Source: Pacificibacter marinus (GTDB lineage Bacteria > Pseudomonadota > Alphaproteobacteria > Rhodobacterales > Rhodobacteraceae). From it: a DNA stretch of 64,000 nucleotides. The notes under the pieces are model-generated. The model was given only the letters and a program-made list of their open reading frames with translations. It had not been told where the DNA came from and did no database searches. The position numbers were made by a program, and so were the translations under genes. The stretch spans positions 1-64,000 of the forward strand of contig NZ_FNZV01000012.1 in NCBI RefSeq assembly GCF_900109555.1. Direction: 5' to 3'. Each line of letters starts with the position of its first letter. Position 1 is the stretch's first letter. Positions 12,966 to 63,086 of the stretch are shown here, one piece after another.

Positions 12966-13006
12966 TATATTTAGATATATCTCAAATCAAGATATATCTA
13001 AATATA
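12966..13006. promoter_or_regulatory. 41-bp perfect inverted repeat, likely operator of the PadR-reductase fusion
   Basis: Two perfectly complementary 17-bp arms (12966-12982 and 12990-13006) flank a 7-base spacer. Each arm contains the self-complementary 10-mer AGATATATCT, so the site is a palindrome of palindromes and could bind two dimers. It begins 11 bp upstream of the ATG at 12955, overlapping where promoter and ribosome site should lie. PadR repressors bind long AT-rich inverted repeats in their own promoters, so autorepression is likely. Confidence 0.75.
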
Positions 13007-25622: not shown

Positions 25623-25727
25623 ATGACTTTTCTTTTTGATCACTTCTTTGTACATAGCATCCAAACCCATACTCAAACCCACGGAGATATTGTGTCATGG
25701 CTAAAGAGCCTATGCTCAAATTTGTGA
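25623..25727 (+). CDS. Possible 34-codon leader ORF overlapping the gltD start
   Basis: An ATG at 25623, with AGGA eight bases upstream, opens a 34-residue frame (MTFLFDHFFVHSIQTHTQTH at its start, four His) that ends at 25727, inside gltD in another frame. If translated it would bring ribosomes over the gltD start and could couple or attenuate it. Length is small and no family is recognised, so it may be fortuitous. The rest of 25469-25696 is AT-rich promoter-like DNA. Confidence 0.3.
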   Translation: MTFLFDHFFVHSIQTHTQTHGDIVSWLKSLCSNL

Positions 25728-27130
25728 ACGTTGGTCGGGACATGCCCGAAAAACGCGACGCAGGCGACCGTAAGGGCGATTTTTTGGAAATCTACGGCGA
25801 TTTCATTTCGGACAAAGCTGAAGAGCAAGCCTCTCGGTGTTCGCAGTGCGGTGTGCCATATTGCCAATCACATTGTCCTCTTCATAACAACATCCCTGAC
25901 TGGCTGCGCCTGACAGCAAGCGGCCGGTTGAAGGAGGCTTACGAACTCTCTCAAGCGACCAACGCTTTTCCAGAGATTTGTGGCCGCATTTGTCCGCAGG
26001 ATCGCCTTTGCGAAGGCAACTGTGTGATCGAACAATCCGGTCATGGCACAGTGACAATCGGTGCGGTTGAAAAATACATCACGGATACGGCTTGGGAAAA
26101 GGGCTGGGTTGAAACAATCACCCCCCATGTCGAGCGCACTGAATCCGTTGGTATCATCGGCTCTGGCCCTGGTGGCATTGCTGCGGCGGATCGTTTGCGT
26201 CGCGCGGGTCTGCAGGTGACTGTATATGAACGCTCTGATCGCGCTGGCGGCTTGCTGACCTATGGCATCCCAAGCTTTAAGCTGGAAAAAGACGTGGTTA
26301 TGCGCCGCATCGACCAACTTAAACAGTCCGGCGTTGAATTCGTGCTGAATTGTAGTGTTGGCGAAGACATCACATTTGATGCACTGCGCCAAAAACACGA
26401 CGCGGTTCTTATTGCAACGGGCGTGTATAAATCACGTGATTTGCAAGGCCCCGGTTCTGGCTCTGCTGGTATCGTTCGTGCGCTTGATTATCTCACCACA
26501 AGCAACAAAGTGTCCTTTGGCGACACTGTGGCGGAATTTGAAAGTGGCGAACTGAATGCCGAAGGCAAAAAGGTCGTTGTGATCGGTGGTGGTGACACTG
26601 CGATGGACTGTGTGCGCACAGCGATCCGTCAAGGTGCGACGTCTGTGAAATGTCTATACCGCCGTGACCGTGCTAATATGCCGGGATCGCAACGTGAGAC
26701 GCAAAACGCAGAAGAAGAAGGCGTGGAATTCGTCTGGCTTGCGGCCCCCAAAGGCTTTGCTGGCAACCCTGTAAGCGGTGTTATGGTGCAAAAAATGCGC
26801 CTTGGCGTGCCGGATGCATCAGGTCGCCAATCCCCTGAAGTGATCGAGGGGGCTGACTATGTTGAAGACGCCGATCTCGTGATCAAAGCACTTGGGTTCG
26901 AGCCTGAAGATCTTCCAAAACTTTGGAATACTGATGGTTTGGAAGTGACGCGCTGGGGCACAGTTTTGGCTGATTTCAAAACGCATGAAACCAAGCTTCC
27001 AGGGGTTTATGCCTGCGGTGATATTCAACGTGGTGCGTCCTTGGTTGTCTGGGCGATCCGCGATGGACGCGAAGCGGCCGATGCTATTGTCGAACAAGTC
27101 AATGCTGCGGCCAGCGTCGCTGCTGAGTAA
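25697..27130 (+). CDS. gltD: Glutamate synthase (NADPH), small subunit
   Basis: The 477-residue flavoprotein subunit of GOGAT passes NADPH electrons to GltB. The N-terminal cysteine clusters for [4Fe-4S] are CSQCGVPYCQSHCP and CGRICPQDRLCEGNC. The FAD motif is IIGSGPGGIAAADRLR and the NADPH motif VVIGGGDTAMDCVRTA; the end has GVYACGDIQRGASLVVWAI. The gene precedes gltB, separated by 175 bp of structured sequence. Confidence 0.97.
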   Translation: MAKEPMLKFVNVGRDMPEKRDAGDRKGDFLEIYGDFISDKAEEQASRCSQCGVPYCQSHCPLHNNIPDWLRLTASGRLKEAYELSQATNAFPEICGRICPQDRLCEGNCVIEQSGHGTVTIGAVEKYITDTAWEKGWVETITPHVERTESVGIIGSGPGGIAAADRLRRAGLQVTVYERSDRAGGLLTYGIPSFKLEKDVVMRRIDQLKQSGVEFVLNCSVGEDITFDALRQKHDAVLIATGVYKSRDLQGPGSGSAGIVRALDYLTTSNKVSFGDTVAEFESGELNAEGKKVVVIGGGDTAMDCVRTAIRQGATSVKCLYRRDRANMPGSQRETQNAEEEGVEFVWLAAPKGFAGNPVSGVMVQKMRLGVPDASGRQSPEVIEGADYVEDADLVIKALGFEPEDLPKLWNTDGLEVTRWGTVLADFKTHETKLPGVYACGDIQRGASLVVWAIRDGREAADAIVEQVNAAASVAAE

Positions 27131-27138
27131 TTCTTAAC

Positions 27139-27284
27139 GGATCAAATGGGTAAAAACAGGTGGCTGCACCCTGTCGGGTTTATGTCTGGCATGTGTCTGC
27201 TACATGTCGGGAAAAGAGCCCCCCATTTGATCCTTCCCGAAGTCTTAAAAGGGCAGTTGCCCTGACCCACTGACCTTTTGGTCA
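27139..27284 (+). ncRNA. Candidate structured leader RNA of gltB (three-way junction)
   Basis: In the gltD-gltB gap a perfect 12-bp stem (GGATCAAATGGG 27139-27150 with CCCATTTGATCC 27222-27233) encloses two hairpins: 27156-27174 (ACAGGTG with CAC-C-CTGT, one bulge) and 27188-27208 (GGCATGT with ACATGTC, 7-base loop). This is a three-way junction of riboswitch size. Downstream come GGGC-AGTT-GCCC (27251-27262) and TGACC-TTTT-GGTCA (27271-27284). GACCC (27264-27268) can pair with GGGTT (27296-27300), covering the gltB ribosome site AAAGGG. I read this as a possible cis-regulatory RNA. No known Rfam class is claimed. Confidence 0.6.
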
Positions 27285-27305
27285 CTCATAAGAAAGGGTT
27301 CCGAC

Positions 27306-30300
27306 ATGACAAAATATGATGAAAGCTGGGCTGCACGCGAAGAAGCAAAACGCGAGTGGATGGCACAAAATTCTCTCTTCCGTGAAGAAGAAGAACATTC
27401 CTCTTGTGGGGTTGGTCTTGTTGTTTCTGTGGATGGCTTGAAATCTCGCAAGGTTGTCGAAAACGGCATTTCTGCATTGAAAGCCATCTGGCACCGTGGC
27501 GCTGTAGATGCTGATGGTAAAACCGGTGATGGCGCGGGCATCCACGTTCAGATTCCAGTGCCGTTCTTTTATGATCAAGTGAAACGCACAGGTCACAAGC
27601 CGCGCGAAAATGAGATGATCGCAGTTGGGCAAATTTTCTTGCCACGTACAAATTTTGGCGCTCAAGAAACCTGTCGTACGATCATTGAATCCGAAGTGCT
27701 GCGGATGGGCTACTACATCTACGGCTGGCGTCATGTGCCTGTCAGTGTTGAATGCCTTGGCGAAAAAGCCAACGCAACACGTCCTGAGATCGAACAGATT
27801 TTGATTTCGAATTCCAAAGGCGTTGACGAGGAAACATTCGAGCGCGAGCTGTATGTCATTCGCCGCCGTATCGAAAAAGCTGCTATGGCCGCTGGCGTGC
27901 AGTCATTGTACGTGTGTTCGCTGTCGTGCCGTTCGATCATTTACAAAGGTATGATGCTGGCCGAACAGGTTGCTGAATTCTACCCTGACTTGATGGACGA
28001 GCGTTTTGAATCTGCTTTTGCGATTTACCACCAGCGTTATTCCACCAACACATTTCCGCAGTGGTGGCTTGCACAGCCGTTTCGCATGTTGGCGCACAAC
28101 GGTGAAATCAACACATTTAAAGGCAACATGAACTGGATGAAGTCGCACGAAATTCGTATGGCTTCCAGCACCTTTGGCGACACGTCCGACGACATCAAAC
28201 CTATCGTTCCACAAGGCGCGTCCGATTCCGCAGCATTAGATGCTGTGTTCGAAGTTTTGGTGCGCGCTGGGCGGTCTGCCCCGATGGCTAAAACAATGTT
28301 GGTGCCCGAAGCATGGTCCCAGCAAGCGGTTGAATTGCCGCAAGCTTGGCGTGACATGTATTCTTATGTGAACTCTGTGATGGAGCCATGGGATGGTCCT
28401 GCCGCTTTGGCGATGACCGATGGTCGCTGGGTTTGTGCGGGTCTTGACCGTAATGGTTTGCGCCCGATGCGGTATGTCGTGACAGGGGATGGTCTTGTGA
28501 TCGCTGGGTCCGAAGTGGGCATGGTGCCAACTGACGAGGCGACTGTCGTTGAAAAAGGCGCATTGGGTCCAGGGCAAATGCTGGCGATCGATATGGTCGA
28601 AGGCAAGCTCTATCACGACACTGAAATGAAAGACAAACTTGCCGCAGCGCAGCCGTTTGGCGAATGGGCGAGCAAGATCAAAGATCTCGAGCCTGTGCTG
28701 TCTGGTCTTGAAGAAAAAGCGATTTTCAGCGGTGCTGAGTTGAAGCAACGTCAAATTGCTGCGGGCTATTCTATTGAAGAGCTTGAGCAAATTCTTGCGC
28801 CTATGGCCGAAGATGGCAAAGAAGCTTTGGCCTCTATGGGCGATGATACGCCTTCTGCTGTTTTGTCCGAAAAATACCGCCCGTTGAGCCACTTCTTCCG
28901 TCAAAACTTTTCGCAGGTCACCAATCCTCCGATTGATTCCTTGCGTGAATATCGGGTGATGTCGCTCAAAACGCGCTTTGGGAATCTCAAAAACGTTTTG
29001 GACGAAAGCTCTGCTCAGACTGAAATTTTGGTGCTCGACAGTCCATTTGTGGGCAATGCGCAATTTGAAGCGCTCAAAGGCAGCTTCAACGCGGGCATGA
29101 CCGAAATCGACTGTACCTTCCCTGTGGATGGTGGCAACACAGCTTTGCGCGAGGCGTTAGATCGTATCCGCGCAGAGGCTGAAGAGGCCGTGCGTTCTGG
29201 TGGCGGTCATATTGTTTTGAGCGATCAAGCACAAAGCGCGGACCGCGTGGCGATGCCAATGATTTTGGCGACATCCGGTGTGCACAGCTGGCTGACTAAA
29301 AAAGGTCTGCGGACGTTCTGTTCGCTTGGCGTGCGCTCTGCTGAATGTATCGATCCGCATTACTTTGCGGTGCTGATCGGGTGTGGCGCTACGATTGTGA
29401 ACGCTTACTTGGCCGAAGATTCCCTGAGTGACCGCATTGAACGCGGCCTTTTGGATTGCACATTGACCGAAGCTGTCGCGCGTTACCGTGCGGCTGTCGA
29501 TGCAGGCCTTTTGAAAATCATGGCAAAGATGGGCATCTCTGTGATCTCGTCTTACCGTGGTGGTTTGAACTTTGAAGCTGTAGGTCTGTCTCGCGCGATG
29601 TGTGCGGAATTTTTCCCAGGCATGCATTCGCGTATTTCCGGCATCGGTATCGGTGGCATTCAAAAGAAAATCAAAGCCGTACACGCACAGGGCTTTTTAG
29701 GCAGCAACACTTTGCCCATCGGTGGGTTCTACAAATCGCGTAAATCTGGCGAAACCCACGCGTGGGAAGCGCAGTCAATGCACATGCTGCAAACCGCTTG
29801 TGACCGTGCCTCTTACGAGATGTGGAAACAGTATTCTGCCAAAATGAAATCCAACCCGCCCATTCACTTGCGCGATCTGTTGGATGTCAAACCTCTTGGC
29901 AAACCTGTGCCATTGGAAGAGGTGGAATCCATCACCGCGATCCGCAAACGCTTTGTCACACCGGGCATGTCTTTGGGCGCTTTGTCCCCCGAAGCGCACC
30001 GCACGTTGTCCATCGCTATGAACCGCATTGGTGCGAAATCGGACTCTGGTGAAGGTGGCGAAAGCCCCGATGATTTCACGCCAGAACCAAACGGCGACAA
30101 CGCTTCAGCGAAAATCAAACAGGTCGCGTCTGGCCGGTTTGGGGTCACAGCCGAGTATCTTTTGGCCTGTGAAGAGCTTGAGATCAAAGTCGCCCAAGGC
30201 GCGAAACCAGGCGAAGGTGGTCAGCTGCCAGGCATGAAGGTCACAGACTTGATCGCTAAATTGCGCCATTCGACCAAAGGCGTGACATTGATTTCACCAC

Positions 30301-31841
30301 CGCCACACCACGATATCTATTCTATCGAGGATTTGGCGCAGTTGATCTACGATCTCAAGCAGATCAATCCTAAGTGTAAAGTCACCGTGAAACTTGTGGC
30401 GTCTTCTGGCGTTGGCACGATTGCAGCGGGTGTTGCCAAAGCGAAAGCGGACATCATTTTGATCTCTGGTCACAATGGCGGCACAGGCGCGTCCCCTGCG
30501 ACCTCGATTAAATTCGCAGGTCTGCCATGGGAAATGGGTCTGACTGAGGCACATCAGGTTCTGTCGATGAACAACCTGCGTGAACGTGTCACTTTGCGCA
30601 CCGATGGCGGTCTGCGCACAGGGCGTGACATCGTTATGGCCGCGATGCTTGGTGCCGAAGAATACGGTATCGGCACCGCTGCTTTGATCGCGATGGGCTG
30701 TATCATGGTACGTCAGTGTCAGTCGAACACATGCCCTGTTGGTGTGTGTACGCAAGATGATGATCTGCGCAAAAAGTTCACTGGTAACGCCGATAAAGTG
30801 GTCAACTTGATCACCTTCTACGCGCAAGAAGTCCGCGATATTTTGGCCTCTATCGGTGCTCGGTCTATGGATGAAATCATCGGTCGTGCTGATCTGTTGA
30901 CACAGGTGTCTCGCGGGTCTGCGCACTTGGACGATCTTGATCTCAACCCGCTTTTGATCACTGTCGATGGCGCGGATAAAATCGTTTACGATCGCTCTAA
31001 GCCACGCAATGCCGTGCCTGATACGTTGGATGCGCAAATCGTTTCTGACGCTGCGCGTTTCTTGAACGATGGCGAAAAAATGCAGCTGTCCTATGCGGTG
31101 CAAAACACGCATCGCACCATTGGCACACGCACTTCTAGCCACATCGTGCAGAACTTTGGCATGCGCAACGATCTTCAACCCGACCACCTGACTGTGAAAC
31201 TCACAGGCTCTGCGGGTCAATCTTTGGGTGCTTTTGCGGCTCCCGGTTTGAAAATCGAAGTGTCAGGGGATGCCAACGATTATGTCGGTAAAGGCCTGTC
31301 TGGCGGGATCATTTCTGTGCGTCCTCCGATGCATTCTCCGCTCAAGGCTTCTGAGAATACCATCATCGGCAATACTGTTTTGTACGGCGCGACGGATGGA
31401 TATCTCTTTGCTGCAGGGCGCGCGGGCGAACGTTTCGCTGTGCGTAACTCTGGTGCGACCGTTGTGATCGAGGGCTGTGGCTCAAGCGGATGTGAGTACA
31501 TGACAGGCGGGATCGCTGTGATCCTTGGGCCAATTGGTGCAAACTTTGGCGCTGGGATGACTGGCGGCATGGCTTATCTGTATGATCCAGAAGGCACTGC
31601 GTTTGAGTTGATGAACCATGAAACTCTGGTGACATGCCCCGTCACTGTTGATCATTGGGAACATGAGCTTAAGTCCTTGGTGGAACGCCATGCTGTCGAA
31701 ACAGGTTCCGTGAAGGCGACTGAGATCTTGTCGAACTGGGATGTTGAAAAAGCCAACTTCATTCAAGTGTGCCCCAAAGAAATGCTGGTGCATCTCAAGG
31801 TGCCGTTGCAGTTGGAAAAAGGCGCAATCCCAGCTGAATAA
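27306..31841 (+). CDS. gltB: Glutamate synthase (NADPH), large subunit
   Basis: The 1511-residue catalytic subunit of GOGAT makes two glutamates from glutamine and 2-oxoglutarate. The N-terminal glutaminase nucleophile is Cys34 (HSSCGVG) after a 33-residue propeptide. The central domain and the FMN/2-oxoglutarate domain follow, the latter with SDSGEGGE, GAKPGEGGQLPG, SGHNGGTGASP and the 3Fe-4S region CIMVRQCQSNTCPVGVCTQ. The C-terminal beta-helix domain has GGEMT-like glycine repeats (GCGSSGCEYMTGG). The ribosome site AAAGGG may be masked by the upstream RNA structure. Confidence 0.98.
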   Translation: MTKYDESWAAREEAKREWMAQNSLFREEEEHSSCGVGLVVSVDGLKSRKVVENGISALKAIWHRGAVDADGKTGDGAGIHVQIPVPFFYDQVKRTGHKPRENEMIAVGQIFLPRTNFGAQETCRTIIESEVLRMGYYIYGWRHVPVSVECLGEKANATRPEIEQILISNSKGVDEETFERELYVIRRRIEKAAMAAGVQSLYVCSLSCRSIIYKGMMLAEQVAEFYPDLMDERFESAFAIYHQRYSTNTFPQWWLAQPFRMLAHNGEINTFKGNMNWMKSHEIRMASSTFGDTSDDIKPIVPQGASDSAALDAVFEVLVRAGRSAPMAKTMLVPEAWSQQAVELPQAWRDMYSYVNSVMEPWDGPAALAMTDGRWVCAGLDRNGLRPMRYVVTGDGLVIAGSEVGMVPTDEATVVEKGALGPGQMLAIDMVEGKLYHDTEMKDKLAAAQPFGEWASKIKDLEPVLSGLEEKAIFSGAELKQRQIAAGYSIEELEQILAPMAEDGKEALASMGDDTPSAVLSEKYRPLSHFFRQNFSQVTNPPIDSLREYRVMSLKTRFGNLKNVLDESSAQTEILVLDSPFVGNAQFEALKGSFNAGMTEIDCTFPVDGGNTALREALDRIRAEAEEAVRSGGGHIVLSDQAQSADRVAMPMILATSGVHSWLTKKGLRTFCSLGVRSAECIDPHYFAVLIGCGATIVNAYLAEDSLSDRIERGLLDCTLTEAVARYRAAVDAGLLKIMAKMGISVISSYRGGLNFEAVGLSRAMCAEFFPGMHSRISGIGIGGIQKKIKAVHAQGFLGSNTLPIGGFYKSRKSGETHAWEAQSMHMLQTACDRASYEMWKQYSAKMKSNPPIHLRDLLDVKPLGKPVPLEEVESITAIRKRFVTPGMSLGALSPEAHRTLSIAMNRIGAKSDSGEGGESPDDFTPEPNGDNASAKIKQVASGRFGVTAEYLLACEELEIKVAQGAKPGEGGQLPGMKVTDLIAKLRHSTKGVTLISPPPHHDIYSIEDLAQLIYDLKQINPKCKVTVKLVASSGVGTIAAGVAKAKADIILISGHNGGTGASPATSIKFAGLPWEMGLTEAHQVLSMNNLRERVTLRTDGGLRTGRDIVMAAMLGAEEYGIGTAALIAMGCIMVRQCQSNTCPVGVCTQDDDLRKKFTGNADKVVNLITFYAQEVRDILASIGARSMDEIIGRADLLTQVSRGSAHLDDLDLNPLLITVDGADKIVYDRSKPRNAVPDTLDAQIVSDAARFLNDGEKMQLSYAVQNTHRTIGTRTSSHIVQNFGMRNDLQPDHLTVKLTGSAGQSLGAFAAPGLKIEVSGDANDYVGKGLSGGIISVRPPMHSPLKASENTIIGNTVLYGATDGYLFAAGRAGERFAVRNSGATVVIEGCGSSGCEYMTGGIAVILGPIGANFGAGMTGGMAYLYDPEGTAFELMNHETLVTCPVTVDHWEHELKSLVERHAVETGSVKATEILSNWDVEKANFIQVCPKEMLVHLKVPLQLEKGAIPAE

Positions 31842-45422: not shown

Positions 45423-45528
45423 GGTGTGCTCCTTGATCGCCTATTCGTTTAACGGGTGTTGAGCCGCTCGAAAAGGGGGCACGGCGTCTGGGGCTTGCGC
45501 TTTGTACGATTAACGCTAGATTGCGGCT

Positions 45529-45613
45529 TACCTCGGGGTGCCACCAGATGTGGCTGAGATGCGCAAGCGGACCCGTAGAACCTGACCCGGCTAAAACCGG
45601 CGGAGGGAAGGTA
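45529..45613 (+). promoter_or_regulatory. TPP riboswitch (THI element) of thiBPQ
   Basis: The conserved THI-box landmarks are all visible in order: P1 TACCT pairing AGGTA at the ends, CGGGGTGCC, TGGCTGAGATG, ACCCGTAGAACCTGA, and GGCGGAGGGAAGGT. It lies 55 bp upstream of thiB and would lower expression when thiamine pyrophosphate is plentiful. Confidence 0.96.
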
Positions 45614-45642
45614 TTCGCCTCATAGGATGCGACCTTTTTCTT

Positions 45643-62853: not shown

Positions 62854-62970
62854 GGGCACTTTCCAACAATTTGGTTTGATCGATCCTCCGTAAAAGGGGG
62901 TCGGTTAGATCTGCCCGACAGTTAGCATACAGTTGCCATACATATAGCATATGCCAAACAGACGGATCGC

Positions 62971-63086
62971 AGACCGCCCTTTTGGGCAGGGTTGCGCCCT
63001 GTTTGCGCACAAAAAGTTACCGCCTGATGCCTGTGGTCTGACTTCCACGGCATCCTCCTTGCCCCGCCTTATGGCGGGGCTTTTTT
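62971..63086 (+). ncRNA. Candidate small RNA downstream of ccrM
   Basis: Between ccrM and alkB a series of hairpins ends in a strong terminator: GCCC-TTTT-GGGC (62976-62987), CAGGG-TTGCG-CCCTG (62987-63001), a 10-bp stem GATGCC-T-GTGG with CCAC-GGCATC (63026-63054), an unpaired CCTCCTT (63054-63060), and the terminator GCCCCGCC-TTAT-GGCGGGGC with TTTTTT (63061-63086). The CCTCCTT linker is complementary to Shine-Dalgarno sequences. The 5' end is a guess. It might instead be the ccrM 3' UTR or a processed product of it. Confidence 0.55.
63061..63086 (+). terminator. Rho-independent terminator downstream of ccrM / candidate sRNA
   Basis: A perfect 8-bp GC stem with a TTAT loop followed by six T. 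It also abuts the end of convergent alkB. Confidence 0.92.

Follow-up and report, generated by a model that had tools for sequence, protein, structure and literature searches.

What lies between gltD (25697-27130) and gltB (27306-31841) of Pacificibacter marinus, and is it read as RNA or as DNA? In the 64,000-nt stretch of DNA analysed here (the window), the two genes are separated by 175 nt, in which a first-pass annotation had described a riboswitch-like three-way junction, with a perfect 12-bp closing stem around two 7-bp hairpins and two more hairpins downstream, an arrangement held to be unlikely by chance. The gap has the size given there, and the stem is present, with GGATCAAATGGG (5′ arm, 27139-27150, plus strand) perfectly complementary over 12 bp to CCCATTTGATCC (3′ arm, 27222-27233, plus strand), as identified by a shuffle test and in the MFE fold. 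None of 300 shuffles reached 12 bp (longest shuffled perfect stem, 11 bp), which makes the stem exceptional, and the folding energy of the gap was −67.5 kcal/mol compared with −48.6 ± 4.0 kcal/mol in 200 dinucleotide shuffles (z = −4.7; no shuffle folded as stably). The sole other 12-bp perfect stem in the window with a loop of 3-120 nt is part of a perfect AT-rich palindrome with arms of 17 bp (12966-13006).

Inside the stem the agreement was partial. The MFE fold contains one 7-pair hairpin, interrupted by a bulge, and in place of the second a longer irregular hairpin of 6 + 11 pairs. The MFE folds of three relatives with a repeat array in their own gltD-gltB gap (L027, L033 and L041) do not hold the same inner hairpins. 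Rfam returned no family match at the gap at the gathering threshold, in keeping with the earlier statement that no named RNA class belongs at this position, and by E-value only a miRNA match (E = 9.5) in 27000-27450. A second copy of the whole 95-nt block was not found in the P. marinus genome (partial matches only, E = 0.026 or worse), and nothing was found that points to the nitrogen ligand that had been guessed at. In 12 of 19 species of the genus, the gap measures 51-58 nt and is without the block. These results, together with the dispersal of the loop sequence in both orientations described below, do not support the riboswitch reading; if the array reading given below is right, the riboswitch lead falls away and a smaller, testable gltB leader is left.

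The feature overlooked in the earlier reading is a tandem array of period 11 inside the stem loop, where the sequence repeats every 11 nt as GTCGGGTTTAT, GTCTGGCATGT, GTCTGCTACAT and GTCGGGAAAAG, with a weaker unit before them. The array (27162-27216, plus strand) comprises a degenerate unit at 27162-27172, then four clear ones that begin at 27173, 27184, 27195 and 27206, and is recognized by both of our search models, R1 and R2. R1 consists of nine array rows, three of them from the window, and only R2 serves as independent evidence; it holds 47 arrays from other genomes, with no row from the P. marinus genome and none from the gltD site, and was obtained from 106 non-own arrays scoring at least 48, from which 60 were drawn at random; 13 of these were then excluded manually, namely the rows from the gltD site (L171 and L219) and rows of lower quality or out of register. 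The R2 match to 27164-27199 had E = 6.7e-7 when the window was searched and 4.1e-5 for the whole genome. A second window array of six units (62909-62974, minus strand; R2 match 62911-62949, E = 9.3e-5, with arrays of this site from G298, G299 and G302 included in R2) sits between the convergent ends of what we take, from their sequences, to be genes for a ccrM-like DNA methylase and a fatty-acid-desaturase/alkane-hydroxylase-like protein, and an array is also present at the ccrM site in genomes G302, G299, G300 and G298. Period 11 likewise recurs in the gltD-gltB gap of G302, G299 and G300 and at other loci of the P. marinus genome, where R1 found 14 separate places at E ≤ 0.6 (some double matches on long arrays) and R2 found 7. 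Chance occurrence was judged by R2, by the 12 genomes of the genus without arrays and by other periods. With a hand-made unit score, period 11 gave 312 matches versus 299-554 at periods 9, 10, 12 and 13, standing apart by its top matches only and not by counts, and a weak unit-free scan with 5 invariant columns recovered one of the two window arrays and returned 30, 9 and 2 matches at periods 15, 12 and 11, respectively, in 200 kb of G175.

The arrays are patchily distributed. Of the 20 genomes of the genus, 8 gave R2 matches, numbering 45, 41, 21, 21, 14, 12, 7 (P. marinus) and 4 (E ≤ 0.01, up to 150 candidates scored per genome); the other 12, eleven of which are more than 90% complete, gave none. 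R1 matched 25 of 295 genomes of the family, P. marinus included, under a strict filter with 21 candidates scored in each, a proportion that points to a dispensable role; the array places numbered 47 in G175 and 27 in G035, which belong to two other genera. Among 385 genomes sampled across the class, the one match outside the family proved on reading to be a palindrome and no array. Low-sensitivity blastn searches gave no match in plasmids (two short queries) and one 23-base match in phages (one short query, E = 0.4). G303, G304 and G260 carry no array at the ccrM site, nor was one found in 100-120 kb of each by the unit-free scan, which finds one of the two window arrays.

Most arrays hold 4-6 units, one per 11 bp, or about one helical turn. 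Of the arrays of G299, at least 43 in number, 21 yielded the consensus GTCGGc.a.gt GTCGGACat.T GTCGGACATnT GTCGGGCA, outside of whose units no column reached 70%; the first and last units are unlike the middle ones, which argues for a defined site of about 42 bp. The unit itself differs between lineages, with GTCTGGC, GTATGGC and GTCGGGC in others and, among the period-11 arrays that follow gltD in other genera, GTCGGTA in L054 and L082, ATATGA in L105 and GTRCAC in L059, L090, L097, L102, L115 and L076. Across the 78 loci from L042 to L121 with a gltD match (L094 and L110, without such a match, were left out), 7 showed period 11 with at least 4 invariant columns over four units, one of which (L055) looks like chance, versus 0 to 2 loci for each other period from 8 to 16; with three units and six columns, the counts were 9 for period 11, and 5 and 3 for periods 15 and 16. 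After gltD, L111 carries GTRCAC units with a period of 13 nt instead of 11, and L065 and L099 carry other repeated motifs (GTACATTTT; GCGAAGTTTCGG-like). Model R3, built for the second unit type (GTRCAC-N5), matched 20 of the 295 genomes of the family; of 30 R3 loci displayed, most read as tandem arrays. A single genome (G277) contains both unit types where about 1.7 would be expected, a difference that does not allow mutual exclusivity of the two types to be claimed. In six genomes, heptamers were more alike within a genome than between orthologous arrays (0.87 vs 0.83, n = 62, P = 7e-4), and orthologous arrays conserved heptamers over spacers (0.83 vs 0.50), a difference that is partly built in by the choice of arrays by heptamer score. 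The P. marinus arrays are degenerate, being as similar to orthologous arrays as to one another (identity 0.66, n = 8).

We then considered gene context, using gene calls trained on the known gltB and gltD frames. Of 137 arrays, 40 are flanked by convergent genes, 26 by tandem genes on the array's own strand, another 26 by tandem genes on the opposite strand and 7 by divergent genes; the other 38 overlap a called ORF, some through over-extended starts and a few as real in-gene copies. The excess of convergent over divergent gaps (40 vs 7) was significant (P = 1e-6). For the second unit type (27 loci oriented by their C-rich spacers, after L356, L365 and L377 had been dropped as short), the corresponding numbers were 5 convergent, 7 same strand, 5 opposite strand, 0 divergent and 10 ORF-overlapping. 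The direction of transcription is thus irrelevant to the arrays and divergent gaps are avoided, and this strand neutrality speaks against the array being read as RNA. One in-coding array occupies the same place in L155 (P. marinus), L195 (G302) and L320 (G298), within a coding sequence that is presumably cobI-like, and its recurrence in three species suggests that the site has been kept despite coding constraint. Within about 110 nt of 123 non-own R1 arrays, GTTAAC is some ten times commoner than in the rest of the loci (0.31 vs 0.03 per kb) and at some loci stands on both sides of the array, an enrichment that could reflect intergenic composition.

Array positions are conserved between species. 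By their flanking proteins, 84 of the 137 arrays are linked between genomes and fall into 24 clusters (each genome being sampled in part, L227 and L239 dropped as short, and duplicates of one place merged), with some links false, as where ABC-ATPase paralogues join two places into one cluster; given the size and number of the loci, we roughly estimate fewer than 10 such links by chance. Orientation is kept in 92 of 110 linked pairs. The array at the gltD site is common to P. marinus, G299, G302 and G175, the last of another genus, in which the array lies 3′ of gltD, with a gene other than gltB coming next; in seven loci from other genera (L059, L076, L082, L090, L097, L102 and L115), gltB lies 573-1396 nt beyond the array. 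On a GltD+GltB tree of 19 species, array presence requires four changes, two of them being forced by well-supported branches, and because positions are common to different clades, losses of whole array sets would be the simplest account of these changes.

The arrays also keep apart from one another. Among the positions listed for nine genomes, 2, 7 and 22 array pairs lay within 10, 20 and 30 kb, compared with 18.3, 35.2 and 50.7 expected, a pooled significance that is overstated because related species share array positions. The positions comprised 45 from G298, 41 of at least 43 from G299, 19 of 21 from G300, 20 of 21 from G301, 10 of 12 from G302, 14 each from G306 and P. marinus, and all of those from G175 and G035, some weak arrays being absent from the positions listed. 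G175 and G035 together showed 3 pairs within 20 kb versus 14.1 expected. In G175, the smallest gap was 12.3 kb (0.0008 of random sets) and gaps were more even than random (0.0076); in G035, where all 27 matches are on C1 (3.79 of ~4.4 Mb), the smallest gap was 22.5 kb (0.013) and evenness was like random (0.40). Evenness was also like random in G300 (0.59; all 17 matches on C1), and its smallest gap was not unusual (0.18), and one close pair, 4.7 kb apart, was found in G306. Replichore polarity, hinted at by the first 18 G175 matches, vanished with all 47 (22 plus, 25 minus; the best of the scanned splits into two arms gave P = 0.14 without correction and without a mapped origin). In three stretches between close array pairs, no evident gene for a binding protein was seen on reading the ORFs.

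Enclosing stems of different sequence occur in five of the six other long gaps of the genus (G302, G303, G304, G299 and, weakly, G260), with or without an array, and the G300 gap has none; whole-gap z values were −4.7 for P. marinus, −4.2 for G303, −3.95 for G302, −2.4 for G304, −2.0 for G299, −1.35 for G260 and −0.2 for G300, the last being no more stable than its shuffles. At least one hairpin is present in the folds of all 19 same-genus gaps. Around arrays in general, a flanking stem was not found by duplex-energy permutation in four genome sets of 14, 21, 27 and 38 arrays (P = 0.34-0.71), and flanking runs of at least 8 bp had a somewhat higher frequency in the family set (0.13 vs 0.05). 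The closing stem is therefore a feature specific to the gltD-gltB gap and no general part of the arrays, and since enclosing stems of other sequence also occur in gaps without an array, this hairpin may act at the RNA level.

Downstream of the block, the two further hairpins are present on the plus strand as described, P1 formed by AGGGC (27250-27254) and GCCCT (27259-27263) and the other by TGACC (27271-27275) and GGTCA (27280-27284). The latter is enclosed by a helix, P2 (27264-27300), in which GACCC (27264-27268) can pair, as had been proposed, with GGGTT (27296-27300) of the gltB ribosome-binding site (AAGAAAGGG with the ATG at 27306-27308; 27290-27308, plus strand). In an alignment of 8 leader sequences, chosen by eye among 99 regions and representing three genera, two of the five P1 pairs had changed on both sides, a number reached by 42 of 500 shuffles, with 100% of cells paired; four cells had changed on both sides and the covariation score was 0.207, neither being reached in 500 shuffles. 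Further pair types did not rise above shuffles, and P2 (39 of 40 cells paired) hardly varies and is weak evidence alone. The close relatives G303 and G304 are without P1, and the 12 short-gap species of the genus show a like layout in other letters, namely a hairpin directly followed by CCTTT, which pairs with GAAAGG. The proposal of a cis-acting RNA that acts on gltB is not supported for 27139-27233 as an aptamer and retains some comparative support for 27250-27300, where the leader appears to be a separate, more RNA-like cis element that would partly pair off the ribosome site and thereby exert translational control. Like other 5′ leaders that sequester a ribosome site, it would pair the gltB site in P2 and shows candidate covarying pairs in P1, and it differs from them in having no known ligand or class and no Rfam match. 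Two further elements lie elsewhere in the window. One is an ordinary TPP riboswitch (45524-45625, plus strand, 74.4 bits). The other, at 63016-63086 (plus strand), is a conserved hairpin, GATGCCTGTGGTCTGACTTCCACGGCATC, with a strong terminator after it, located between the second window array and the desaturase-like gene; it has no Rfam match, shows by eye compensated stem changes in G299 and G300, and is possibly a small RNA gene.

How, then, are stem, array and leader best explained? That the gap as a whole works as a riboswitch or attenuator, a cis-acting RNA for the GOGAT genes with the three-way junction as its aptamer, now seems very improbable, for the low folding energy, the enclosing stems of differing sequence in related gaps and the shared P1/P2 leader that speak for it are set against the missing Rfam match, the absence of the same inner hairpins from the folds of L027, L033 and L041, a loop made of a dispersed and strand-neutral array, an array behind gltD even where gltB is not the next gene, and the short block-free gaps of most species of the genus. 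Intercistronic hairpins set the ratio of neighbouring products in other operons, and the block could be such a segment-stability or processing hairpin, with the array as its loop, that sets the GltD:GltB ratio. The enclosing stems in P. marinus, G302, G303 and G304 and more weakly in G299 and G260, the z values of these six gaps (−4.7 to −1.35) and the hairpins in every gap of the genus agree with this, but the stability of the G300 gap is like that of its shuffles, arrays generally lack flanking stems, and such a hairpin accounts for the stem and not for the array, so that we regard it as rather unlikely as an explanation of the block.

The remaining alternatives concern the arrays themselves. 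A non-autonomous mobile repeat of the REP/MITE kind, without present function, would be dispersed, mainly extragenic and patchy across species, as the arrays are; it is nevertheless improbable in view of positions and orientations common to species and to some genera, the lack of a terminal inverted repeat or conserved flank, the absence of a Y1 transposase (PF01797) from six of the eight array-bearing genomes of the genus, the mutual avoidance of arrays and the different units that other lineages carry at the same place. In favor of Rho-use sites or other strand-specific termination signals, the 66 arrays with a same-strand left neighbour lie a median of 22.5 nt past a stop codon (51 of 66 within 60 nt), yet arrays between tandem genes are as often sense as antisense (26 vs 26; 7 vs 5 for the second type) and several adjoin ordinary terminators, leaving termination signals with very little credence.

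By a narrow balance of probability, we favor the view that the arrays are chromosomal platforms for a DNA-binding protein that would bind head to tail and mark positions tens of kilobases apart, the gltD-gltB block being one such site and not an aptamer. A predicted sequence-specific protein would place one subunit on each 11-bp unit, and the arrays would probably serve chromosome organization or act as bidirectional boundaries. The unit may drift by lineage together with its predicted protein, and where that protein has been lost, the sites would decay. More tentatively, and with less than even confidence, the arrays may represent an undescribed chromosome-marking system in which 11-bp arrays at old, fixed positions are read as double-stranded DNA by a fast-evolving, repeatedly lost protein whose unit changes by lineage. 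No array-binding protein was found, and searches of the open-licence PMC library showed no description of phased 11-bp arrays. If the platform reading is right, some Rhodobacteraceae would hold about 10-50 well-separated chromosomal sites whose recognition unit differs between genera and which are without the tested features of REP, KOPS, MITE, terminator or promoter-operator; the patchy presence within one genus means that the binding protein could be found by gene-content comparison.

Among known systems, REP/BIME elements with their RAYT transposases are likewise dispersed, mostly extragenic and patchy between species, but the arrays are direct repeats with an 11-bp period, form no palindrome and are set far apart. 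An association with RAYT was rejected, a Y1 transposase being present in 3 of 20 genomes of the genus and in 2 of the 8 array-bearing ones, and terminal inverted repeats or shared ends of the MITE kind were not found in the 21 G299 arrays. KOPS, matS and parS are, like the arrays, short sequence-specific chromosomal sites in many copies, whereas the arrays are tandem, have lineage-specific units and show no replichore polarity detectable in G175. Pho-box and OmpR-PhoB-type operators differ from the arrays, which have mostly 4-6 units and tens of sites, no evident gene theme, and a convergent rather than a promoter placement (40 convergent vs 7 divergent), but the two have in common tandem direct repeats 11 bp apart, that is, head-to-tail units one helical turn from each other with a variable spacer.
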